From assembly GCA_016223025.1 (NCBI GenBank), contig JACRPU010000012.1, forward strand, positions 1 through 64,000: a stretch of DNA of 64,000 nt. The letters are read 5' to 3'. This DNA is from Nitrosomonadales bacterium. GTDB taxonomy: Bacteria; Pseudomonadota; Gammaproteobacteria; Burkholderiales; Gallionellaceae. Below the pieces are notes generated by a model. That model was given only the letters and a program-made list of their open reading frames with translations, did not search any database and was not told the origin of the DNA. The translations under genes were made by a program, and so were the position numbers. Below, piece by piece: positions 3,881-63,200 of this stretch (its first letter is position 1; the number at the start of each line of letters is the position of its first letter).

Positions 3881-4894
3881 TCATGCTGCGCCACCCAGCA
3901 TCATGTTCCGGTAAGACAATAACAGAGACTCGAACAGCAGCCTGGGATTCAGGGGATGCGCCGCCTCGCGCCTGGCAACCAGCAGCTCTTTCTGATAGCG
4001 CAGCAGATCGAACACCATGACTTTGCCCGCGAGATTCCTGATGGTGTCAGCCAGTTCGATGTGGTACAAAACCTTTCCGGCAAGTTTCGCGCTGCCCAGG
4101 TCGCAGCACCACTGCTGCAGCCAGTGGATCACCCTGGCCGGTTCGGTGCGCTGCAATTGCTCGGCCAGCGCAAACACGTCGAACTGTGCCGGTCGCCCGA
4201 TTTCCTGGAGGAAGTGGCGGTATGCCGCAGCATCCTCCTCCGCTTCCTCCGCCAAACGTGCCGCCCGCAACGGGGCAAACCCCGCCTGCGCCAGCAGTGC
4301 TGCCTGATCGTCCACGCCCTGCTGTTTCAGCCATGCGGCGCTTGTTTCGGGCGGCGGCAAGGGGGCGGCAAGCGCGAGACAGCGGCTGAGGATGGTGGGC
4401 GGCAATTGCTGCGGCTTGTGCGTGACCAGGATGAACAGCATCCGCCCGGACGGCTCCTCCAGGGTCTTGAGCAGCGCGTTTGCCGCGTTGGCATTCATGG
4501 TTTCCGCCGGATGGATCAGCACCACGCGGTACCCGCCCTGATGCGCGGACAGGCTGGAAAAATCCGCGAGGGCGCGTATCTGGTCAACGGAAATCTGCCT
4601 CGCCGGTTTTTTGCCGCCCTCGCTTTCTTCTTCCTGCGCGGACAAGGCATCCGGCTGGATCAGGCGGAAATCCGGGTGGGTTTGCTGCTGGAACCAATGG
4701 CAGGAAGAACAGCCATCGCAGGCCAACCCTCCGGCAGGCGGCTGCTCGCACAGGAGCGACCGGGCAATGTTCATGGCAAAATCGAACTTGCCTATCCCCT
4801 GCGCACCCTTCAGCAAAACAGCATGCGGCAGGCGCGCGCGCAACCCGGCCCAGCGCTGCCAAAGCTCATCCTGCCACGGATACAGTTTGTTCAT
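3881..4894 (-). CDS. holB: DNA polymerase III subunit delta'
   Basis: HolB is the delta' subunit of the clamp loader that places the beta clamp on primed DNA. The 337-residue product shows the AAA+ fold ([18 protein letters not shown] at about 27), the zinc module cysteines ([12 protein letters not shown]), the arginine/sensor region ([13 protein letters not shown]) and the SRC motif ([14 protein letters not shown]). The Walker A motif is degenerate at its end (GKF), as expected for this non-ATPase subunit. The start codon overlaps the tmk stop (ATGA), indicating translational coupling. Confidence 0.93.
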
Positions 4895-5505
4895 GTTAAA
4901 GACCGAATGATTTTCTCGATATCAGCCTTGACTGCTTCGGGTGTCTGCGCCGCATCAATCAACGCAAAGCGTTGCGGGTTTTTCCGGTAGCGTTCCAGAT
5001 AAGCCTGCCGCACCTTCTCGAAGAAGCCACCCTGTTCCTGTTCGAAGCGATCCAGCGAGGCGTTGTTTGACAGCCGCTGCCGCGCCACTTCAATCGGAAT
5101 ATCAAACAGCAGGGTCAAGTCGGGCTGCAAATCCTCATGCACCCAGCGCTCCAGTTGCTCCAGCTTCGGAAGCGCAACTCCCCTGCCCCCGCCCTGATAG
5201 GCGAAACTGGCGTCGCTGAAGCGGTCGGACACCACCCAGGTTCCGCGCCGCAAGGCGGGCCGGATCACCTGCTCGATATGTTCGAGGCGGGCGGCGAACA
5301 TCAGCAGCGCCTCGGTTTCGGCATGCATCGGCTGGTTGAGCAGTATTTCGCGCAGGTGTTCGCCCAAGGATGTGCCGCCGGGTTCGCGCGTCACCAGCAC
5401 CTCCAGCCCGCGCTGGCGCAGGACATCGGCAAACCATTGCAAATGGGTGCTCTTGCCCGCGCCGTCCACGCCTTCAAAAGTGATGAATTTTGCCTTGCTC
5501 ATCAT
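4891..5505 (-). CDS. tmk: Thymidylate kinase
   Basis: Tmk phosphorylates dTMP to dTDP with ATP. The 204-residue product has the P-loop [12 protein letters not shown], the DR(Y/F)-type motif [17 protein letters not shown] (dTMP and lid contacts) and the REPGG motif. There are two adjacent Met codons at the start; the frame begins in a region with no other candidate. In related genomes tmk directly follows mltG. Here the gene upstream is the res gene of a foreign island, only 21 bases away, so tmk must now be transcribed from the island operon or from a promoter inside res. Confidence 0.96.
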
Positions 5506-5526: not shown

Positions 5527-8313
5527 TTAATGTCGAGCCAAAATATCCTGAATCTGCGCGGGCTGATAAGCGACATCCCAACACCACCCGCCAAAGCCAC
5601 CCTTGCTATTCACGCCTTTTACCCATGCATCCAGCGCAGCGCGCTTGGCGCGGTTCTGTTCTGAATCTTCGCCCTTGATTTCCAGTATCAGGATTTTGCC
5701 ATTGGCCAGGCGTATCAGGAAATCAGGCACAAACCGGCGGCGCACGCCATTCCAGAGATAGTGAATCTGAAAACCCAGATGATCGTTTTTGGCATACGCC
5801 AGCACCAGCCCGTTTTTCTTTTCCTCCAGCAAATTGGCGGTGTACATCTCCCAACTGCTATCCACCACAACATGGCTGATTTGCGATTTGCGTGTCGGCT
5901 GACAGGGCTTGGTGGTGTACCAGGTGTGCATGTAACGGGTTGAACCAATCGGCGATTCCTCGTCGAATACTGGCTCAATTTTTTCGGTGTTCTGCTCGTG
6001 GATAAACCGAAGCAGATGCTGGACGATTTCATCAATGTTCAATGCCAGCAATATCCGCTTGCGCAATGGCTCCTGATGAAACAGCGAAGGAATATCCAGC
6101 TTGCCCGAATCAAAAAACTGCTCGACCAGCTTGATCAGTTGAAACACCAGAAAGTCTTTATTCCCGGTAAATCGCCCTGAGATTTCTTCATACGCTTTGC
6201 GTGCCGCCTGGAATGTCAGGCGTTGCAGCCTGAAACCTTCCGGCAACTTCTCCAGATCAATCTCATGCACCTTGCTCATGTCGGTCGCGCCACCCACGGC
6301 GGGCGCAATTTCCACGCTAATGGGTGTCCGTGCCGGGTCTAGCGTCAGCGTGCTTACCTTCTCCCAGTCCACCACGAGCAAGGTGCGAACCACCGTATCA
6401 ACGCGCAACACATTCGGCCAGCGTATCTCCAGATCATTGCGCTCAACCAGCGATTCAATCTGCACGCTCGGCTTGGGCGGAGGAGGAGGTTCGCCCCCTT
6501 CGCCCACATCCTGAAATATCGAAAGCGGCACACCAAACACATTCACATATTCCGGTTTGAACAAACCGTTCTCATCAACATCGTAGCCAACCCGGCGCAA
6601 TCCGCGACCGATCACCTGCTCGCACAGCAGCTGGCTGGTGAAGGCGCGCAGCCCCATGATGTGCGTGACATTCTTCGCATCCCATCCTTCCGAGAGCATC
6701 GCCACCGAAATCACGTTCTGCAAGTCCTGCCCTGCGCCGCCGCGCTTGCCGACGTTATCCACGATCTCGCGCAGCAGCTCCTCTTTCTTCATCTCGCGCC
6801 ACTTCTGCTTTTTCGTTTCCGGCAGATTGACGCTATCAATGATGGCATGCAGTCGCGCTTCATAGTCCTTGTCCGAGGTAGCTGTCTCGCCCAGCTCAGC
6901 TTTTTCCAGCACCCTGGAATCCACACGCAAGGTTTTTTCAGGCGCTTTCATTTCCGGCCAGTGTGCATCACCCTGCCGCAAGAAATGCTCAATACGCGCG
7001 GCTGTCTCGGTGCGATTGCACACGGTAAGCATTACCGGCGGCGAAGCATGCCCCGCCGCCTGCCATTGCTTGAGCGTCTCGCGCCAGTCCGCACCCAGCA
7101 AAGCATAAGCATCCTTCACCAGCTTGGGCAATGCCTCGTGCGGCTCGGCTTTGCGATTCAAATCCTCTGCCACTTCATCGTCGCGATAAATGTGATACAG
7201 CTTCGAGCGGTAAGTCTGCGTATCCGGCAAAGCGTCGTCACGAATCACCACACGAGGTGTTTTAACCAGCCCAGCCTCGATCGCATCGTTCAAGCCAAAA
7301 TCAGACACGATCCAATCAAACAACCCGGCCTCAGTGCTGGCCTTACCTGTCGGTGCAAACGGTGTAGCAGACAAATCAAAGCAGCGCTGAATCCGGCGCG
7401 TCTTGTGGATACGATCCAACCCCTCCACCCAGCGCGTCGCCTCATCAAGGTCTAGCCCCTGCTCTGCTGCCTGCTTCTTGCTAATCTTCAACTCAGCCGG
7501 TATGCGGTAAGCGTGGTGCGCCTCGTCGTTGATGATGACCAGATCGCGATAACTGGCCAGCTTGCCCAACACCCGCTTGGTAAAAGCCTCATCGCTTTCC
7601 GCACCCTTCTTCACCACCGAGCGGTCTGGCTCCTTAAGCGGCATCAGGGTGTGCCAGTTTTCCACCAGCAACCCCATCTGATTCAACTTCTGGCGCAATG
7701 ATTCGGAAGGACACAAGCCGAAGGCATCGTAATAATTATCCGGCTCGCCGGGATACAGAACCCGCAGCCGCTCCTTCACGGTCAGCCCCGGTGCCACGAT
7801 GAAAATGGCGCGTGAATAATCCTTGTTGCGCTTCGGATAGGTCAGCGCGTTCAACACCTGCCAGGTGATGATCATCGCCATCACCGCCGTTTTGCCGCTG
7901 CCCGTTGCCATCTTGCTGCACAGCCGTTCCCACGCGCCGCCATCGCCCGGAACCACTATCCCCTGCTTGAATTCAGCCGCAGCCTCTGTCCACCAAATCA
8001 GTGTTTCAATCGCCTCCAGTTGGCAGAAATAGAAAGGATATTGCCGCGCGCTCTGGTCAAACCAGTGCTGTAGCAGAGAACGAGTAATTGAAGTAACGCC
8101 GGGGTAACCCTGCTCACGCCACGCATCTACCCGCTGGCGAATTTCATTGACCCGATCCAACCGTTCGATGCGGCGCGTATTGTTGCGCACATCGAAAATC
8201 TCATACCCGGCAGGCCGCCGCTCCGCTACCAGCTTGAGCGTGCCATCGCGCGCCTGCTCCCAATGCTGTTGCGGGCTGATGTATGGCGAGTTGATGATGA
8301 GGGATTGAGCCAC
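5527..8313 (-). CDS. res: Type III restriction endonuclease, Res subunit
   Basis: Res is the ATP-dependent DNA-translocating nuclease subunit of a type III restriction enzyme, working with Mod. The protein (about 930 residues) has the SF2 motor: Walker A MATGSGKTAV (about residue 140), DEAH box INDEAHHAYR (about 265), LSATPFAPTG (motif III) and the motif VI-like QVIGRGLRRVGYD. The C-terminus has the nuclease domain of PD-(D/E)XK type, PDFLIRL followed by LILEIKGE. All key residues are present, so it appears active. The start is ambiguous: GTG at 8313 lies just after the upstream stop with a GGAAAG site, while the frame is open to a TTG at 8352. It ends 21 bases before tmk. Confidence 0.92.
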   Translation of the reverse strand: MAQSLIINSPYISPQQHWEQARDGTLKLVAERRPAGYEIFDVRNNTRRIERLDRVNEIRQRVDAWREQGYPGVTSITRSLLQHWFDQSARQYPFYFCQLEAIETLIWWTEAAAEFKQGIVVPGDGGAWERLCSKMATGSGKTAVMAMIITWQVLNALTYPKRNKDYSRAIFIVAPGLTVKERLRVLYPGEPDNYYDAFGLCPSESLRQKLNQMGLLVENWHTLMPLKEPDRSVVKKGAESDEAFTKRVLGKLASYRDLVIINDEAHHAYRIPAELKISKKQAAEQGLDLDEATRWVEGLDRIHKTRRIQRCFDLSATPFAPTGKASTEAGLFDWIVSDFGLNDAIEAGLVKTPRVVIRDDALPDTQTYRSKLYHIYRDDEVAEDLNRKAEPHEALPKLVKDAYALLGADWRETLKQWQAAGHASPPVMLTVCNRTETAARIEHFLRQGDAHWPEMKAPEKTLRVDSRVLEKAELGETATSDKDYEARLHAIIDSVNLPETKKQKWREMKKEELLREIVDNVGKRGGAGQDLQNVISVAMLSEGWDAKNVTHIMGLRAFTSQLLCEQVIGRGLRRVGYDVDENGLFKPEYVNVFGVPLSIFQDVGEGGEPPPPPKPSVQIESLVERNDLEIRWPNVLRVDTVVRTLLVVDWEKVSTLTLDPARTPISVEIAPAVGGATDMSKVHEIDLEKLPEGFRLQRLTFQAARKAYEEISGRFTGNKDFLVFQLIKLVEQFFDSGKLDIPSLFHQEPLRKRILLALNIDEIVQHLLRFIHEQNTEKIEPVFDEESPIGSTRYMHTWYTTKPCQPTRKSQISHVVVDSSWEMYTANLLEEKKNGLVLAYAKNDHLGFQIHYLWNGVRRRFVPDFLIRLANGKILILEIKGEDSEQNRAKRAALDAWVKGVNSKGGFGGWCWDVAYQPAQIQDILARH

Positions 8314-8314
8314 T

Positions 8315-8872
8315 TCAGGGCTTTCCGGCCAGACTGTGCATTGCTTCAGCAAACGCCTTGAAGCTGGGCGAACAATTCCGCTGAAGATTAAGATGAGTGC
8401 CTATGCGGCGCGCACCGTCCCGTTTTTGGTATGCGGGTATTGCCTTGCGCAGTTCGGCAACAGGGCTACCCAAGCGATCTGGCTCACGATAAATAGCCTT
8501 ACTATTCCAGTCTGCCACACGTGGCAAGGAAAACCCCTCCGCTACCGCAGCCCAGTCCCCAACAAACCAAGCCTTCAGTTCGCGGCAGGCAATGCGCACG
8601 ACGGCATCAGGCCGACCAGCTTCACGACATTTTTCCATCAATCCTTGCTTGATGAGCCGACAATCCCCGTTATCCTGATCACGCAACACCACAAATGAAG
8701 TATCCGGCCTAAGCCAAGCACGCATACGGCGACCTATGCGTTTTTCCAAATCCTGCTTTCCCTCGAAAACCATGTACTCAACATGAATCCCATCAGGAAG
8801 AATGGAAGGTAAAAAGCCTTGCAAAGCATCCTGCGCCGAAGGTTCTTCCAGCATAAAAACCAAAGTTCTCAC
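8315..8872 (-). CDS. DUF4276 family protein, TOPRIM-like partner of the ATPase
   Basis: This 185-residue protein fits the DUF4276 family, which resembles TOPRIM nucleases: an acidic residue after the first strand (VFEGKQDLE), the acidic LRDQDNGDC and the characteristic RIACRELKAWFVGDW. Family members are commonly coupled to an AAA ATPase in phage-defence loci, with the ATPase as sensor and the DUF4276 protein as effector. Here the start codon overlaps the stop of the ATPase gene (ATGA), so the two are translationally coupled. The pair interrupts mod and res of a type III system. That it is a nuclease or toxin is inference. Confidence 0.75.
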   Translation of the reverse strand: MRTLVFMLEEPSAQDALQGFLPSILPDGIHVEYMVFEGKQDLEKRIGRRMRAWLRPDTSFVVLRDQDNGDCRLIKQGLMEKCREAGRPDAVVRIACRELKAWFVGDWAAVAEGFSLPRVADWNSKAIYREPDRLGSPVAELRKAIPAYQKRDGARRIGTHLNLQRNCSPSFKAFAEAMHSLAGKP

Positions 8873-10065
8873 AGTGGGTTTGCCCCCTGAAACAACCCCT
8901 CTTTCCAGAGGTAGCCCATTTGATCTCCCTCGGCAATATAGGCAGAAATTTGTTTATCTTCCCCGGCACGTTTGACAAGGGTGTAACCATTTTCCTTTAC
9001 CAACCAGAAAACCTCATTCAACTGCACCGCGTTAAGAAAATCGGGCGAATGGGTCGAAACAAAAACCTGCCCGCCCCGCATGGCATAAGCGCGAAATTCT
9101 TCCGCCAAGTCCCACAACAGGGATGGATATAACTGATTCTCCGGTTCTTCGACACATAACAGAGGGTGAGGCGAAGGGTCATACAGCAACACAAGATAAG
9201 CCAGCATTTTGATCGTGCCATCCGACACATAACGCGCAAGGAAAGGATCCTCGAAAGCCCCATCCTGAAATTTCAGCAACACCCTTCCTTCTTCGGTCGT
9301 TTTGGCTTCGACATGTGAAATCCCTGGCACACGGTTTTTTATTTTTTCCAGAATATTGGCGAACACATCCGGGTGATGCTTGTGCAGATATTCCACCACC
9401 AGAGAAAGATTTTCCCCTTCGCGTGAAAGATGCTCGGCATACCCCGCCTCTTGCTCAGGCCGTGCGCGGCTGATATGAAAATCTGACAGATGCCAGTTTT
9501 CGATCAGATTGCCCAGCGCCACCACAGCGGGGAAACGCTCGAATTGTGCCAATCCTTTGATTGCCAGAATGTCCGGGCTTTTGAGCGTTTGCGCTTCCCG
9601 TTTGAGGTCTTTCTCGTTAGTTACGGACTCCATCTCATTGGTGACAGCCTCGCCGGTGCCATGGCTGAAGTCCAGGAAATGCCAAGGCTGCCCCTTGCTG
9701 CCGCGCCGATAGCGAAGAATCTCGCGGGCAACGACAGGCTTACCGCGTTCCTCGTCTATGGTCAGGCTGTAGGTAATCAGCGTGGAGGAACCGCGCCCCA
9801 AATCGGCACGCAATTTCAACTCAATTTCGATAGGGCCGATACTTTCCCTGCTGCGCACCTCCTGAAATCCCCGGCTCCCCCCCAGCTTGCCCAATGCCGC
9901 CGTCAAATTGGTTGTCATCGCATCGCGCAAAAAACCAAAAACGGAAAACAGTGTGCTTTTTCCCGACCCGTTTGCGCCAACGAGAACGCAAAAATGCGGA
10001 ATGTCGCGCAAATTAACATCCTGAAAGGCACGAAAATTCTTAAGCCTGATTGCTTCGATTCTCAT
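8869..10065 (-). CDS. AAA family ATPase (ABC/SMC-like, OLD/RecF type head)
   Basis: The 398-residue protein has the split ABC ATPase head of the AAA_15/AAA_21 families: IRLKNFRAFQDV, Walker A VGANGSGKST at about 30-39, signature-like ARYVSDGTIKMLAYL, Walker B LLCVEEPENQLYP and switch histidine FVSTHSPDFL. It lacks a long SMC coiled coil and a C-terminal TOPRIM domain, which is instead supplied by the overlapping DUF4276 gene. It starts 4 bases after the mod stop, so mod, ATPase, DUF4276 and res form one operon. I infer a sensor role in an accessory defence module. Confidence 0.85.
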   Translation of the reverse strand: MRIEAIRLKNFRAFQDVNLRDIPHFCVLVGANGSGKSTLFSVFGFLRDAMTTNLTAALGKLGGSRGFQEVRSRESIGPIEIELKLRADLGRGSSTLITYSLTIDEERGKPVVAREILRYRRGSKGQPWHFLDFSHGTGEAVTNEMESVTNEKDLKREAQTLKSPDILAIKGLAQFERFPAVVALGNLIENWHLSDFHISRARPEQEAGYAEHLSREGENLSLVVEYLHKHHPDVFANILEKIKNRVPGISHVEAKTTEEGRVLLKFQDGAFEDPFLARYVSDGTIKMLAYLVLLYDPSPHPLLCVEEPENQLYPSLLWDLAEEFRAYAMRGGQVFVSTHSPDFLNAVQLNEVFWLVKENGYTLVKRAGEDKQISAYIAEGDQMGYLWKEGLFQGANPL

Positions 10066-10069
10066 AATT

Positions 10070-12535
10070 TCACCCCAGTTCCATAATCTTCAACGACTCA
10101 ATCCCTCTATCATCCACGATCTTCACCGCCACCTTGCGATTTTCCCCTGACTCGAATGGTAGCGAAACAGTTCCCTGATAGGCTTTCATCCTTTCCTCGT
10201 CCAACTCGGCGCGAATGTTCTTCTTGAGTTTGAACCAGCCATCGTCTTTTCCCGCCAACGGAAAGAACACCTGCCGCGGAAACAGCGAACGGTCATCGTA
10301 ATCGGTATCCAGCATCCACACGGCGATCTTATTCTTGCCGCCCGATACCAGTTCACCCTTCGACGTATCAAAGTAATCGAAGCCATACACCTCGACTTCG
10401 TAGTTCCCGTCCTTGCGTTGGCGCACTTCCACATCCGGCTGCCCCATCAGCCAGAACGACTGATTGCTGGAACGGCCTTTCTTCAGGTCTTCGGTGAGCA
10501 GGTCGGTATTCATCTGCGCCTTGAGCGCAGTAATACCCTTGAGATGGTCAATATCTTTGGCCGCCTCCGGATCAAAGGTGAAAGCGCAGAACACGATCAC
10601 CTTAGGACGTGGAAATAATTGCGCAGCTTCATCCAGCGCCAATGCCACCTGCCGCTGCTCCAAGGCTGCATGTTCAGGGCCGAAGCTCACTACCGCACGC
10701 TCACCGGTATCTGCCAGCGAACCGCTCGCGTGCAAATAGCGTGTACCCGGCAGCGTTTCCAGTTCGGCAAATTTCAGCATCTGCCCACCCTTGCCGCGTA
10801 TGCCGGTCTTCAGCAACTCGTCGCGCCACTGGTGCTGGCGTGAGGATTCACCGGAACGCGCTATCGCCACATCCGCCTGCCATTCAGCCGATTGGGGCTG
10901 CTCGGCTTCTTCCAGCGCATACACCGTCGGGAACGGCACCGCCTCCACCGTGAACGGGCCGGTAATGCGCAGCTTGTTCTTCGTCACATGCGGCTGGTCG
11001 TAGAGCGTTTCCTGATCAGCGTGCGCGGCGATGGAAGCATCCATCTGTTGTTGCATGGACAGGCGCGCAACGTGGAAAGCATCGAAGGGTTTGCGTGCGG
11101 CTTCCGGCCAGTCGGCAGGGAAATCGAATGGCACTTCCCATTCCTGTAGGGGCGAATTTATTCGCCCTCGGGCGGATGAATCCGCCCCTACAAAAGCCGC
11201 ATTCAACGCCCCCAACGCCGCCTCCACCGCCGGATGCATCCGCTCCCATATCTCGTCGATCTCCGGGTTGTTGGCGATGGATTTCAGAGTAACGTGCGGC
11301 ACGGTCTTGTAGATAAAACCGCTCTTCAAACCCTCGTGCGGATACTTGAGTTCGTAGTAATCGTAGCTCGCCGTCATCAGCCGTTGCTTGGCCAGCGTCA
11401 CCGCCACGCGCGAAGTATCGCAGGTGATCCAGCGCCGCCCCCATTTCTCGGCGACAAAGGCGGTGGTGCCGGAACCGCAAGTCGGATCGAGCACCAGATC
11501 GCCGGGGTCGGTGGTCATCAAGAGGCAACGCTGAATAGCGGCTTCACTTGTTTGAACAGCATAGATTTTGTCAGACGCACCAGTCATGTCTGACCATAAG
11601 TTAGTCAACCGCATGACGGGATAGTCACCGAACTTAAGCAAGTAGCGCACCGTGGCACCTGTCGCTATTAGCCGGTTACACTTAATCAATGTTTCAATCC
11701 CATTCTTAGTTGTCTTCCAGCTTTTTCCACTGGTTGGCGAGAACTTTCTCCCCTGAAATTCAAAATCAAAAATGCACGTAGCCGTGTATCCACTGGATAC
11801 CAAATTTTCTGTAGTGAACGAGCTTTCTGGCGTCGAAGGGGCATCGGAAGTTACACGCCTCCAGTAACCTCCCGGAAGGGCTTCGAATTGATAGGTTTCT
11901 AACTCACGCTCAACAAAAAGTTGGTTGATTTTTATCTTTGAGAAATCCTTGGCATACCAGACAATCATGTCGAAAATCCCGCTCACAACGTCTGAGCCAA
12001 GGCTTCCGCTTGTTCTGTATGCGATAAGCGTGACAAAATTCTCAGAACCGAATATCTCATCACATATCTCCCGCACGTGATGAACATTTTCATCCGATAT
12101 CTGCACAAATACGCTGCCCGATTCGTGCAACAACTCCTTCGCCAACAGCAACCGATCGCGCAAATAGGTCAGGTAGGAATGGATGCCTAACTCCCACGTG
12201 TCGCGGAACGCCTTGATCATCTCCGGCTCTTGCGTGAGGTCTTCGTCCTTGCGGTCTTTTACGTCGCGTTTGTTGGTGAAGGGCTGGAAGTTGGAGCCGT
12301 ACTTGATGCCGTAGGGCGGGTCGAGGTAGATCATCTGCACCTGCCCGGCCATGCTCTCTTTTTGCAGCAGCGAGTTCATCACCAGCAGGCTGTCGCCCGC
12401 GATCATCCGGTTTGCCCAGCCGCGCTCGTGGCGGTAGAAATCAATGGCGTCGCGCAGCGGCACGTTTTCAAACGGCGCATCGAACAGGCCGGGCTGTTGC
12501 CATGCAGAAATCCCCCCTCCGCCCCCCTTTTTCAA
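10070..12535 (-). CDS. mod: Type III DNA methyltransferase Mod, main part (frame-shifted from its N-terminus)
   Basis: This frame encodes most of an N6-adenine methyltransferase that gives a type III enzyme its specificity. It has motif IV DPPYGIKYGSNFQP, the run EDLTQEPEMIKAFRDTWELG usual in this family, and motif I LDPTCGSGTTAFVAEKWG in beta-class order. The natural N-terminus lies in another frame upstream (12468-13013). The two frames overlap inside a repeat at 12509-12605 that is rich in C/G tracts, and the TTG at 12535 is only a nominal start. Removing one base from the 8-base tract at 12593-12600 would join them. A 48-bp palindrome (11145-11192) lies in frame. Mod is therefore broken or phase-variable as sequenced. 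Confidence 0.88.
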   Translation of the reverse strand: MKKGGGGGISAWQQPGLFDAPFENVPLRDAIDFYRHERGWANRMIAGDSLLVMNSLLQKESMAGQVQMIYLDPPYGIKYGSNFQPFTNKRDVKDRKDEDLTQEPEMIKAFRDTWELGIHSYLTYLRDRLLLAKELLHESGSVFVQISDENVHHVREICDEIFGSENFVTLIAYRTSGSLGSDVVSGIFDMIVWYAKDFSKIKINQLFVERELETYQFEALPGGYWRRVTSDAPSTPESSFTTENLVSSGYTATCIFDFEFQGRKFSPTSGKSWKTTKNGIETLIKCNRLIATGATVRYLLKFGDYPVMRLTNLWSDMTGASDKIYAVQTSEAAIQRCLLMTTDPGDLVLDPTCGSGTTAFVAEKWGRRWITCDTSRVAVTLAKQRLMTASYDYYELKYPHEGLKSGFIYKTVPHVTLKSIANNPEIDEIWERMHPAVEAALGALNAAFVGADSSARGRINSPLQEWEVPFDFPADWPEAARKPFDAFHVARLSMQQQMDASIAAHADQETLYDQPHVTKNKLRITGPFTVEAVPFPTVYALEEAEQPQSAEWQADVAIARSGESSRQHQWRDELLKTGIRGKGGQMLKFAELETLPGTRYLHASGSLADTGERAVVSFGPEHAALEQRQVALALDEAAQLFPRPKVIVFCAFTFDPEAAKDIDHLKGITALKAQMNTDLLTEDLKKGRSSNQSFWLMGQPDVEVRQRKDGNYEVEVYGFDYFDTSKGELVSGGKNKIAVWMLDTDYDDRSLFPRQVFFPLAGKDDGWFKLKKNIRAELDEERMKAYQGTVSLPFESGENRKVAVKIVDDRGIESLKIMELG
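11145..11192. repeat. In-frame 48-bp REPIN-like palindrome inside mod
   Basis: Two 23-nt arms (TGTAGGGGCGAATT at the left) form a near-perfect hairpin with a 2-nt loop. The length is exactly 16 codons and the mod frame stays open, adding a short stretch containing GADSSARGRINSPL. A related palindrome with a GTGCGAATTCATTCGCAC core is at 18064-18125. Confidence 0.85.
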
Positions 12536-13013
12536 AGGGGGGGACTTGGAATTGGCAACGCCACCGGCTCCCCCCTTTGCAAAAGGGGGGCTGGGGGGGG
12601 ATTTGCCCCTTGCGCACTGCCGACAAGATACTGGCGGGATCGATGCGTTCGTGGACGTGCAGGGAAACGGTGTCGATGTCGAAGCTGGTGCGCTCGGCCT
12701 TGCCAGCCCAGTTGAGGTAAGGGGATTGCAGCCGCTTCAGTTCGGCCAGCGCATCGCGCATGGTGTCTTGGTCGCCGCTCGCCAGCGCATCGTCAATCAA
12801 CTTTTCGATCTGCGCGCGCTGCCCGTCAAATTGCAGGGCGGGGTCAAGGTGCGGGTCATAAGCCCAAACGGTTTTCGGTTGCGCTGGATCGGTCTCGGGA
12901 TTGACCAGCCCGACATCGGGATTGTTCACCCGCTTATTCGGGTGACGGTAGCTGAGAATTTGCGAGGCATCGCTCCCTGATGCCGCTTTGGATGTTGACT
13001 TCTTGATTGCCAT
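12468..13013 (-). CDS. mod: Mod N-terminal fragment, out of frame with the rest
   Basis: From the ATG at 13013 the frame encodes features expected at the N-terminus of this Mod family: HPNKRVNNPDVGLVNPETD, YDPHLDPALQFDGQ and AERTSFDIDTVSLHVHERID. It then enters the repeat, where the sequence becomes low complexity (PPQPPFCKGG), and stops at 12468. The downstream Mod body continues one base out of register. Whether this is a real frameshift, a reversible tract-length change or a homopolymer sequencing error cannot be settled from one sequence. Upstream, 13014-13122 holds only repeat-like sequence (TTTGGAGTGCAGCGGCTTGC). Confidence 0.75.
   Translation of the reverse strand: MAIKKSTSKAASGSDASQILSYRHPNKRVNNPDVGLVNPETDPAQPKTVWAYDPHLDPALQFDGQRAQIEKLIDDALASGDQDTMRDALAELKRLQSPYLNWAGKAERTSFDIDTVSLHVHERIDPASILSAVRKGQIPPQPPFCKGGSRWRCQFQVPPFEKGGRRGDFCMATARPVRCAV
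12509..12605. repeat. C/G-tract palindromic repeat splitting mod
   Basis: Two hairpins (CCCCCCTTTTTCAAAGGGG and CCCCCCTTTGCAAAAGGGGG) are joined by about 27 bases and flanked by AAATCCCCCC-type ends in inverse orientation. Tracts of 7 G (12537-12543), 6 C, 6 G and 8 G (12593-12600) are present. Both mod frames are open across the element, which locates the frameshift within it. Confidence 0.85.
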
Positions 13014-13122
13014 GCCGCCCCCGCATTTAATTGCAGCGGGCATTATACCCGGCAGCAGCATCGCGTTTAAACGGAGCCGCTTTGGAGTGCAGCGGCTTGC
13101 CGTCTGCGCGACAAGACGTTAG

Positions 13123-13473
13123 CTACGAGAGACCCATGAGTTTGGTCAGCGCCGCGCGAACCACCGCCGCATCGGCTTCCGCGAGCTTGCCCAATTCTCC
13201 CCGGATCAGGCGGTGATCCAGCGTGAACAGTTTGAAGCGTACCTTGGAAGGCGCCGGGAGCCCGGCTGCCGCAAGATCGGTAACGGGGCAATCGAGCGGC
13301 CAGGGGGCATTGGCCTCGGACGTTATCATGGCCATGACAGAATGGCCGGACGGAGTATTGAATGCCGTGGCGTCGGAAAGCACCAGCGCCGGGCGGATCT
13401 TGGCGGCATTGCGGTCGGTGAACGGAAACGGTACGCGCACGACGGAGAACCGGTCAAAGCCCACGGTAGGCAT
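13123..13473 (-). CDS. MazF/PemK-like endoribonuclease toxin
   Basis: The 116-residue product resembles the MazF/PemK (CcdB fold) toxins that cut RNA. It has an N-terminal strand FDRFSVVRVPFPFTD, the KIRPALVLSD motif corresponding to the conserved K-x-RPa/vV segment, VMAMITSEAN and the late helix IRGELGKLAEADAAVV. The ATG at 13473 is preferred over an upstream GTG at 13488 and overlaps the end of the antitoxin gene, the usual coupled order of antitoxin then toxin. It lies between mod and the island edge, probably stabilising the island. Confidence 0.82.
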   Translation of the reverse strand: MPTVGFDRFSVVRVPFPFTDRNAAKIRPALVLSDATAFNTPSGHSVMAMITSEANAPWPLDCPVTDLAAAGLPAPSKVRFKLFTLDHRLIRGELGKLAEADAAVVRAALTKLMGLS

Positions 13474-13684
13474 TCTCGTCGGCTGCACTGTTCCATTCGC
13501 TCAAGGTGCCTTCGACTGCACGCAGATATTCAACATCCAGCGGCTGCACCCGGCGCACGGTCGCCGTGCCGTCGCTGCCAACTTCCCAGGCGATCATATC
13601 CCCTGCCGAAACATGCAGCGCAGCGCGCACATCCTGCGGGATGGTGGTTTGACCTTTTGTGGTAATTTTGGCGATAGCAAGCAT
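13454..13684 (-). CDS. AbrB/MazE-family antitoxin
   Basis: This 76-residue protein has a SpoVT/AbrB swapped-hairpin DNA-binding domain at its N-terminus (IAKITTKGQTTIPQDVRAAL followed by GDMIAWEVGSDG), typical of MazE-type antitoxins, and a C-terminal tail that should wrap the toxin. A strong ribosome binding site (GGAGGAAAG) lies directly before the ATG. Such antitoxins usually repress their own operon; no operator is obvious in 13685-13749. Confidence 0.85.
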   Translation of the reverse strand: MLAIAKITTKGQTTIPQDVRAALHVSAGDMIAWEVGSDGTATVRRVQPLDVEYLRAVEGTLSEWNSAADENAYRGL

Positions 13685-13749
13685 CTTTCCTCCAGTAAGG
13701 AACGCATTACTTCATTACTTTACGCTGGTAATAACAGCCGGTCAATGCA

Positions 13750-13830
13750 TTATTTCTGGTATTTGTTCACCGCCCGGTTATGATGCGTCAGCGTGGAAGG
13801 AAACTCCGAGCTACCGTTGCCGCGTGCCAC
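13750..13830 (-). pseudogene. Second, diverged copy of the mltG 3' end
   Basis: Read on -, this segment encodes VARGNGSSEFPSTLTHHNRA followed by VNKYQK and a TAA stop. It matches the last 26 codons of the intact mltG (VARGDGSSEFSVTLTQHNRA, then VNRYQK) at 21 of 26 residues and about 75% of bases. It has the same orientation, is separated from mltG by a palindromic repeat, and has no upstream mltG sequence. It is a remnant of an mltG allele from another lineage. Confidence 0.9.
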
Positions 13831-13831
13831 A

Positions 13832-13893
13832 ATTTTGGAGTGCGGCGGCTTGCCGCCGCTTTGATAGCTGGAGCTTGCTCCAGCACTCCAGAA
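13832..13893. repeat. REPIN-like palindrome between mltG and its remnant
   Basis: TTTTGGAGTGCGGCGGCTTGCC is followed by a second hairpin (GCTGGAGCTTGCTCCAGC) and the inverse end CACTCCAGAATT. Related TTTGGAGTGC sequences occur at about 13068-13120 and 46861-46976. Confidence 0.75.
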
Positions 13894-13906
13894 TTATTTG
13901 TTCCAT

Positions 13907-14893
13907 TCATTTCTGATAGCGATTAACCGCCCGGTTGTGCTGCGTCAGTGTAACGGAAAACTCCGAACTGCCGTCGCCGCGCGCCACAAAATAGAGGGCG
14001 TCGGTCTTTGCGGGATGCAAGGTTGCCTGAATCGAAGCCAGCCCCGGCAGTGCGATCGGCGTGGGCGGCAGGCCAGTGCGGGTATAGGTGTTGTAGGGGG
14101 CGTCCTCCTGCAAGTCGCGCTTGCGCAGGTTGCCGTCAAATTTGTCGCCCATGCCGTAAATCACCGTTGGGTCGGTTTGCAGCAGCATGCCCTTGCGCAG
14201 GCGGTTGGTGAACACGCCCGCGATCATGCCCCGGTCGCGCGCGGCGCCGGTTTCTTTTTCCACGATGGAGGCCAGGATCAGCGCCTGGTAAGGCGACTCC
14301 AGTGGGAGACCCTGTTCCCGCATTTGCCAGTTTTCCTGCAAATGTTTCTGCATGGTCTCATAGGCGCGCTTGAGCAGGATCAGGTCGCTGGAGCCGCCGG
14401 CAAAATAGTAGGTATCGGGAAAGAATAATCCTTCCAATTGTTTTTCGGGTATGCCGAGACGCTGCAATATTTCCGCTTCGGAGAGTTGCGCCGTATCGTG
14501 GCGGATGTCCGGATTGGCATTCAATGCTGCGCGGAACTGGCCAAAGGTCCAGCCTTCTATGGCGCTGAGCTCGCTTTGTATCCCCTTGCCCTTGGCCAGC
14601 ATGTCCAGCAGTTCGAGCGGGGTGACAGCGGTTTCCAGCACGTATTTGCCGGCCTTGATCTGCGCCGACTTGCCGAGCAGGCGTGCCAGAATGACAAACA
14701 TCCGACCGCTGGACAGCACGCCTTCCTGTTGCAGTTGCTGCGCCGCACCTTTCAGGCTGGTTCCCTGCTTGAGCGAGAACTCGTAAGGCTGCGCGGGCAA
14801 GGTCAGCGGGCGGGTGGCGTAATAGTAAAAATCACCCGCCAGCAGCGCGGCGAGAAAGAACGTGAGAAGCAACAGCCATTTAACCGGACGCAT
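13907..14893 (-). CDS. mltG: Endolytic murein transglycosylase MltG
   Basis: MltG is a membrane-anchored lytic transglycosylase thought to terminate nascent glycan strands. The 328-residue product has an N-terminal membrane anchor (KWLLLLTFFLAALLAGDFYY), a LysM-like region and the YceG domain with the catalytic Glu in ILASIVEKETG, the FFPDTYYF motif and the ending LPPTPIALPGL. It overlaps the end of pabC by 14 bases. Normally tmk follows directly; here a defence island intervenes, and a second copy of the mltG 3' end lies 77 bases beyond the stop. Confidence 0.95.
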   Translation of the reverse strand: MRPVKWLLLLTFFLAALLAGDFYYYATRPLTLPAQPYEFSLKQGTSLKGAAQQLQQEGVLSSGRMFVILARLLGKSAQIKAGKYVLETAVTPLELLDMLAKGKGIQSELSAIEGWTFGQFRAALNANPDIRHDTAQLSEAEILQRLGIPEKQLEGLFFPDTYYFAGGSSDLILLKRAYETMQKHLQENWQMREQGLPLESPYQALILASIVEKETGAARDRGMIAGVFTNRLRKGMLLQTDPTVIYGMGDKFDGNLRKRDLQEDAPYNTYTRTGLPPTPIALPGLASIQATLHPAKTDALYFVARGDGSSEFSVTLTQHNRAVNRYQK

Positions 14894-60238: not shown

Positions 60239-63200
60239 ATGACCCACAACAAGAAACTCATCGAAGTCGCCCTGCCTTTGGAGGCGATCAACGTCGCCAG
60301 TGCGCGCGAGAAATCCATTCGCCACGGCCATCCTTCGACGCTGCATTTGTGGTGGGCAAGGCGACCGCTGGCGGCGGCGCGGGCGGTGATTTTTGCGCAG
60401 ATGGTGGACGATCCCTCGGCGCATCCCGACATTTTCAAAACAGAAAAAGCGCAGGAGAAGGAGCGGCAGCGCCTGTTCCGCATCATCGAGGAACTGGTGA
60501 AGTGGGAGAACACCGCCAACGAAGCAGTGCTGCAACAGGCACGCGACGAAATCTGGCAGAGCTGGCGCTATACCTGTGCCGAGAATGCCGACCATCCGCG
60601 AGCGAAGGAACTGTTCGACCGCTTCAAGTTGCCAGCCTTCCATGACCCCTTCGCCGGTGGCGGTGCGCTGCCGCTGGAGGCGCAGCGGCTGGGGCTGGAA
60701 AGTTACGCCTCCGATTTGAACCCGGTAGCGGTGCTGATCAACAAGGCGATGATCGAGATACCGCCGAAGTTCGCGGGAAAACCGCCGGTTTCCTTGGGAG
60801 CGCGGGCTTCCAGCCCGCAACATAACCTGGATATAGGCGGAGGCAAAGGATGGTTCTCCCGTGGCTACCTTCCTCACTTCGATCATCCAGGCCTTCTCCA
60901 ATCCATCACCTTTCGCCTTGCAGATGCAGTCCCGGCTGAGACCGTTAAACAATGGCGGCAGGAGTTGGAGTTGACCCCTGAAACCGATGCCGGCGACTCA
61001 CGCAATATCGAATTGCGTGAGCGGCTGGAGCATTATGAAGACCAAGGGCATGGCGCTTGCCACTTGCGCAACAAGGAAGCCGCAACTGCCGTACAGGACG
61101 CCTTGCAGCATTTCGATGGCAAGCGTTATCGCCTGCTTGCCTGGTGCGTCATGCCCAATCATGTGCATGTGCTTATCGAGACACAACCCGGCCATTCGCT
61201 TTCGGATGTTGTCCATAGCTGGAAATCCTTTACTGCCAATATCATCAACCGCCTGATCGGAAGCGAAGGCCCGTTCTGGATGCCGGAGTATTTTGACCGC
61301 TTCATACGGGACGACCGGCATCTCCAGGCTGTTGTCGAGTACATCGAAAACAATCCGATAAATGCAGGGCTGGCAGATACACCGCAGGCATGGCGGTTTT
61401 CGAGCGCTCATGAGCGGGCTGGAAGCCCGCGCTCCCAGGAATGGAAAGGCGCCCAAGGTCTCGCCGAGGACGTGCGCTATTACGGCCAATGGATGCGCGA
61501 CGAAGCCGAGAAGCGCATCGGCCACCTCTACCCCAAAATCGAGGTCACGGCGGAGATGGTGGCTGGGAGCGCGGGCTTCCAGCCCGCCCGTCCCGACCTG
61601 AAGAAATACGTTGGGCAAAAGCTCGCCGTCATCGCCTGGCTGTGGGCGCGCACCGTGAAAAGCCCCAACCCGGCCTTTGCCAATGTGGACGTGCCGCTCG
61701 CCTCAACCTTCATGCTGAGCACCAAACCGGGCAAGGAAGCCTATGTCGAGCCCATCATCACTCCCTCCCCCCTCGCGGGGGAGGGCGGGGGAGAGGGAGC
61801 TGTCGGCTACCGCTTCACGGTGAAGGTGGGCAAGCCAAAGGATGCGGAAGGGGCGAAGAACGGCACGACGGCCGGCAAACGCGCTGGATTCCTTTGCATG
61901 ATGTCGGGAACGCCATTGCCTTACAGCTACATAAGGGATGAGGGGGCGAGCGGGCGCATGAGCGCGAAGCTGATGGCCATTGTCGCCGAGGGCGAGCGAG
62001 GCCGGGTTTATCTCGCGCCGACGCCGGAGATGGAAGCTATTGCCCTGACTGCACAACCGACGTGGAAGCCCGACACGCCGATGCACGGTAAATGCCGCGT
62101 CAATGTTTCCAACTATGGGCTGGATGTTTACGGCGACCTCTTCACCCCCCGCCAACTCGTCGCGCTGACGACCTTCTCCGATCTGGTGCAGGAAGCGCGC
62201 GAGCGGGTGAAGCGCGATTACCTGGGAGCGCGGGCATCCTGCCCGCAAGAAAGCAAAGAGCGGCCAGGATGGCCGCGCTCCCAGGATGCGCTTCTCGCCG
62301 AAGGCGGCGCGGATGCCACGGCGTATGCGGATGCGGTGGGGGTGTATTTGGCATTTGCAATATCAAAGCTTGCCGACCGAGGCTCATCAATCTGCACGTG
62401 GTTCACCGAAAGAGATTCCACAAGGAATACGTTTGCTCGCCAGAGCATTCCAATGACTTGGGACTACGCAGAGCTGAACACGCTGCTTGGTGGTACAGGC
62501 AGTTTCGTCGGAGCAGTTGGCTGGACAGCGGAGAGTATCGAAGGTGTTGCGGCTGGTTACGGGTCAAGCTTTGGAGCCAGTAATCAGGTTGATGCGACAA
62601 CCCAGACAATCAGCGCAGACAAACTCGTCTCCACTGACCCTCCCTACTACGACAACATTGGTTACGCTGACCTTTCAGACTTCTTCTACGTCTGGTTGCG
62701 CCGCTCGTTAAGGCCAGTTTTCCCTGACCTCTTCTCCACGCTCGCCGTGCCCAAGGCCGAAGAACTGGTGGCCACACCCTACCGCCATGGAAGCAAGCAG
62801 AAGGCCGAAACCTTCTTCCTCGACGGCATGACAGAGGCAATGCACCGCCTCGCCGAGCAGGCGCATCCGGCTTTCCCAGTAACCATCTACTACGCCTTCA
62901 AGCAGGCCGAAAGCGATGGCGGCGACGGTACCACCAATACCGGCTGGGACACCTTCCTCGCCGCCGTCATCGAAGCCGGTTTCGCCATCAGCGGCACCTG
63001 GCCGATGCGCACAGAACTGAGTAATCGCATGATCGGCTCCGGCACCAACGCCCTCGCCTCCAGCATCGTCCTCGTCTGCCGCCCGCGCGCCGCCAACGCC
63101 CCCACCGCCACCCGCCGTGAATTCGTTGCCCAACTCAAGGCCGAACTGCCCGATGCGCTGCGGCATTTGCAAGGCCTGGGAGCGCGGGCTTCCAGCCCGC

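Follow-up and report, generated by a model that had tools for sequence, protein, structure and literature searches.

A second mltG 3' end next to mazEF in the mltG-tmk interval of a Gallionellaceae genome: a possible leftover from one-sided recombination involving a close relative

Layout of the locus

The analysed stretch of DNA (the window) comprises positions 1 to 64,000 of contig JACRPU010000012.1 (assembly GCA_016223025.1), which belongs to a Nitrosomonadales bacterium of the Gallionellaceae. On its minus strand, a complete mltG gene of the YceG/MltG family (14893-13907; Pfam YceG, E=9.6e-87) is followed, after 10 bases, by a 64-bp palindromic repeat (13896-13833) and a second mltG 3' end (13832-13750), hereafter called the remnant. 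A promoter-like element, mazE, mazF, a half palindrome (13102-13081), mod, two HEC-01-like genes, res and tmk (4891-5505; Pfam Thymidylate_kin) come next in this order. All genes point in the same direction, so that the insert of 8.4 kb splits the mltG-tmk pair without reversal.

The promoter-like element, TTGACC-N17-TAAAGT, directly follows the stop codon of the remnant in the region upstream of mazE (13685-13749, minus strand). The genes behind it, all on the same strand, encode a MazE-like antitoxin (13454-13684; Pfam MazE_antitoxin, E=1.2e-06) and a MazF/PemK-like toxin (13123-13488; Pfam PemK_toxin, E=6.4e-14). The type III restriction-modification (RM) genes mod (10070-13061; PADLOC MTase_III, E=4.7e-174) and res (5527-8352; Pfam ResIII) enclose genes for a HEC-01B-like AAA ATPase (8869-10065; PADLOC, E=1.1e-204) and a HEC-01A-like DUF4276 protein (8315-8872; Pfam DUF4276; PADLOC, E=4.1e-68); the nesting of this pair (8315-10065) between mod and res is identical in genome G102. 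Within mod, insertion of a CCCCCCTTTG...CAAAAGGGGGG-type inverted repeat at 12500-12612 has put the N-terminal part of the methyltransferase out of frame with the remainder, and the RM system may therefore be broken or restart inside mod. A further palindromic repeat in mod (TAGGGGCGAATTTATTCGCCC...GGGCGGATGAATCCGCCCCTA, 11147-11205) is apparently in frame and adds a short peptide. No RNA was detected within the window by Rfam at gathering thresholds.

The second mltG end

The remnant, on the minus strand between 13750 and 13830, encodes the peptide VARGNGSSEFPSTLTHHNRAVNKYQK* (26 codons plus TAA), and its homology to mltG extends two bases further, to 13832, where it meets the palindrome. Compared with the end of the resident mltG gene (13907-13987), it is identical at 21/26 residues and 60/78 nucleotides (77%), and both ends have the same orientation. 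The gene end described by the sequence-only reading, its orientation and its position next to a toxin-antitoxin pair, here assigned to mazEF by Pfam, were thus all borne out. The two ends lie in tandem, 76 bp apart, with the dispersed palindrome (13833-13896) on one side of the remnant and the mazEF pair on the other. Their local alignment reached a score of 76, whereas none of 100 shuffles scored above 34, and a search of the bacterium's own genome with the remnant gave E=1.8e-12. The genome is a draft assembly of 137 contigs, but an assembly chimera or chance similarity is extremely improbable, given that the similarity is far above chance, the remnant lies inside a contig of 88.5 kb and there is no strong match on another contig. 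The second mltG end is therefore real. It terminates in TAA, whereas the mltG stop codon is TGA in genomes in which mltG and tmk overlap, and it is most likely a relic that has no function.

Resident mltG, tmk and the unoccupied site

The closest reference is a sister from the same genus (G001, locus L037), with a DNA identity of about 88% around the site. In this genome, as well as in G005, G012, G019, G006 and G011, mltG and tmk overlap. The island is absent from the sister, which carries neither mazF nor the res gene; the insertion therefore belongs to the lineage of the window, or else was lost in the sister. Trees grouped the window with the sister for mltG (100/100) and for both halves of tmk (86/88 for the 5' half and 98/97 for the other). 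Judging from these trees, the resident mltG and tmk genes are native. Moreover, no sampled genome was closer to the resident mltG than expected from the neighbouring genes, and no exchange tract was visible in it. Pairwise counts had pointed to foreign sequence within the first (5') half of tmk; this was rejected, as the tree keeps window and sister together. A separate pattern was seen in genus g12 (G026, G012 and G019), where the last 250 bp of tmk are 54-78% identical to the tmk gene of the window and the region further upstream is about 90% identical, as if replaced by recombination.

Relatives of the remnant

The donor search that had been proposed for the remnant was carried out in 158 genomes of the family and 399 genomes of the order. 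It yielded a near-relative signal and no donor: the best match among the family genomes was the intact mltG end of the sister (66/78, 85%), no match in either set exceeded this value, and the best match outside the family, among the 399 order genomes, was at most 76%. The sister and resident ends agree at 69/78 positions. A best match to the resident mltG of a close strain had been named beforehand as evidence against the sequence-only reading; formally, this is what was obtained, yet 85% is a between-species distance and hence not decisive.

The differences between remnant and sister comprise 8 synonymous and 4 nonsynonymous changes, whereas free drift would be expected to give a ratio of about 1:3 (p=0.002), which argues that most of the divergence arose while the gene still worked. 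The nonsynonymous changes S11P, D5N and Q16H hit positions at which other genomes show little or no variation; they suggest later decay of the remnant, which blurs the signal. Comparison with outgroup codons indicated that codons 23-24 changed only in the resident gene, with the remnant retaining the older state, and at most one of the private changes of the resident gene is common to the remnant. A tree of the 81 alignment columns placed the remnant with g1/g5/g12/g6, apart from most Gallionella rows (100/99); at this length, the sister, the resident gene or a third lineage are not separable as its closest relative, and a clade of remnant and resident end had a p-AU of 0.45. From the synonymous bias, the scarcity of shared resident-specific changes and the native state of the resident mltG and tmk genes, we infer with moderate support that the remnant is foreign and came from a near relative of the same or a neighbouring genus.

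The same data bear on a duplication within the lineage, in which the resident 3' end would have been copied in tandem at about the time when window and sister lineages diverged, with subsequent decay of the copy. This scenario would account for the failure to find an external donor in the 158 family and 399 order genomes, for a remnant-sister identity (85%) close to the ordinary between-species value of about 88% and for the compatibility of the 81-bp tree with a pairing of remnant and resident end. It is nevertheless unlikely, as the 8:4 bias is improbable for a sequence without function, and because the near-lack of shared resident-specific changes would date the copy roughly to the split, yet the sister does not have it. 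In addition, the palindrome family at the junction has just one core copy in the sister, and other copies of the palindrome are without flanking duplications.

The palindrome at the junction

The repeat between the two mltG ends (13833-13896) is a REP/REPIN-like dispersed palindrome with 27 matches in its own genome at E<=0.1. As in REPINs, a pair of palindromes is dispersed in many copies. Its core occurs in 12 exact copies in this genome, in one copy in the sister and in none of 8 relatives. Only two matches to the core are found in the 64-kb window (0.02 expected), namely the copy at 13834-13855 and the half REP at 13081-13102, which have the same orientation and bracket mazEF and the remnant. 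The homology to mltG breaks at 13832, to the base at the edge of the palindrome, which argues for a non-homologous join at this point.

Several ways of generating this arrangement were considered and rejected. The palindrome is not generally flanked by gene-end duplications, as only 1 of 20 checked copies, the one at the remnant, showed this feature. Tandem duplication of the gene end together with the palindrome conflicts with the 23% divergence of the two ends and with the near-absence of the repeat family from the sister. Site-specific integration into the mltG 3' end, with the two ends as attL and attR, is at odds with their position, both being on the mltG side and 76 bp apart; no piece of mltG was found before tmk, and no integrase was identified by Pfam or PADLOC among the open reading frames of the island.

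It is very improbable that mazEF and a captured mltG end form a mobile cassette between two direct REP copies, moved by a REP-associated transposase that carried along part of the adjacent donor gene. Three Y1_Tnp matches were detected in the genome, of which the two outside the window are not flanked by repeats of the 13833-13896 class, and none were found in a search of the sister genome. The match inside the window (60799-61440) corresponds to a Y1 transposase domain of the IS200/REP-associated type with GGGAGCGCGGGCTTCCAGCCCGC repeats on either side, which appears to be inserted in frame into a larger reading frame.

Composite origin of the island

The relatives of the insert were found at different sites. 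The RM/HEC-01 cassette has a relative with 89.6% DNA identity (93% at the amino acid level for Res) in G102, a member of another genus, where it adjoins hypA and hypB, and the res end of the cassette lies at a third location in G118. A mazEF pair with its promoter, 78% identical over 13207-13724, is located beside rimO in G124, and this match stops 25 bp short of the remnant (hypA, hypB and rimO were named from sequence, without a family search). In none of the 158 family genomes other than that of the window was mazEF or this RM cassette seen adjoining mltG, and the kin of the remnant and the kin of the island belong to different genera. Judging from these separate relatives of mazEF and the RM cassette, the island is a composite of separate modules.

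The sequence-only reading had taken the remnant to mark the edge of the whole island, and had explained the island by homologous exchange with a relative that likewise carried it downstream of mltG. Contiguity and common direction of remnant, mazEF and RM genes between mltG and tmk would agree with such a transfer. Under plain homologous exchange, one allele takes the place of another and a single gene end is left; the two ends in tandem thus require a non-homologous join. In addition, RM and mazEF relatives reside at other sites, the relatives of the remnant do not come from the genus of the island's relatives, tmk shows no clear foreign tract, and no other family genome was seen with the island downstream of mltG. 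A donor lineage and context shared by the remnant and the entire island was not found, and its transfer as one unit by homologous exchange is improbable. Of the original proposal, the foreign nature of the remnant retains moderate support, whereas its role as an island edge is limited, at most, to the mazEF segment.

Survey of the mltG-tmk gap in the family

The proposed comparison of mltG-tmk intervals was made in 118 genomes in which the two genes are adjacent. The gap measured up to 100 bp in 96 of them, 101-400 bp in 12, 401-2000 bp in 8 and more in the remaining 2. Toxin-antitoxin genes were present in the gaps of three other genomes (RelB/YafQ in G106, RHH/ParE plus YafQ in G094 and a PIN protein in G113), and a CBS-type protein in those of two genomes. 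These three toxin-antitoxin gaps are loci L173, L175 and L180. In G062 (L172; G062:C6:36500-51500), the gap is filled by an island of 12.8 kb with different content, which encodes an IIG-like helicase-type restriction protein, a WYL regulator, a phosphoesterase and a large AAA protein. These data suggest that the gap is a recurrent landing site for insertions; a second mltG end was absent from all other intervals examined.

Origin of the remnant

The reading we prefer, tentatively and at somewhat less than even chances, is that the remnant is a relic of the mltG 3' end of a close relative, which arrived together with mazEF by one-sided recombination, and that the RM/HEC-01 genes came separately. 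A fragment consisting of the mltG end and mazEF would have entered at the mltG-tmk junction. Homology probably served as the anchor at one of its ends, and the other end would have been attached by a non-homologous join at the REP-like palindrome just past the resident mltG stop codon. One homologous and one non-homologous join would leave both mltG ends in tandem. As a separate module, the type III RM/HEC-01 cassette would have entered the same gap. A donor with the gene order mltG-mazEF is plausible, since toxin-antitoxin genes follow soon after mltG in G106, G113 and G094. Against this reading stand the 85% ceiling of the donor matches and the lack of a sampled genome with mltG-mazEF. A search for the homologous anchor, which covered tmk only, gave no clear donor tract (5' half with the sister, 86/88), and this weakens the preferred direction.

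The same anatomy would result from the reverse course of events, in which the remnant, mazEF and the island are older and the complete mltG gene arrived later together with its palindrome, by means of an anchor in mltG and an illegitimate join. In the model put forward for Vibrio T6SS clusters, old 3' ends likewise come to lie downstream of the incoming copy (PMC5361080), and the ancestral codons 23-24 were kept by the remnant and lost by the resident gene. This course is rather doubtful, as the resident mltG is not unusually close to any sampled genome and groups with the sister (100/100). The lack of an exchange tract in it slightly favours an incoming mltG end plus mazEF. One-sided recombination, its direction and the order of events are inferred.

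As a small marker, the remnant may record that near relatives exchanged DNA at a site in a housekeeping operon that repeatedly gains toxin-antitoxin and defence genes. What is useful in the analysis is the family-wide survey of this gap, together with the evidence showing that the island is composite.

Comparison with known systems

The same conserved gene neighbourhood, mltG-tmk-holB, takes up foreign DNA in Pseudomonas putida KT2440, in which a 65-kb genomic island resides in tmk (PMC10653934). There, tmk is disrupted, whereas here it is intact, with the insert positioned between it and mltG, and no integrase was seen. The repeat at the junction resembles REPINs (PMC3116915) in being a short, dispersed element of two palindromes with a lineage-specific copy number; it differs in that no RAYT adjoins a repeat copy at the two Y1_Tnp loci examined outside the window.

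T6SS clusters of Vibrio cholerae contain orphan immunity genes as well as displaced 3' ends of effector genes; for the latter, one-sided recombination was proposed (PMC5361080). Both cases share a stranded 3' end just downstream of a complete gene and next to toxin-type cargo, but effectors and immunity genes are exchanged in Vibrio, whereas here the end belongs to the housekeeping gene mltG and either direction fits. Homology-facilitated illegitimate (one-sided) recombination is itself documented (PMC3240628): it combines a homologous join at one end with a non-homologous join at the other, and its additive junctions can retain duplicated gene ends. In the present case, the end product alone is seen and the homologous anchor was not found. 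The best reading of the remnant is that of an ordinary relic of this already documented process, having involved a close relative.
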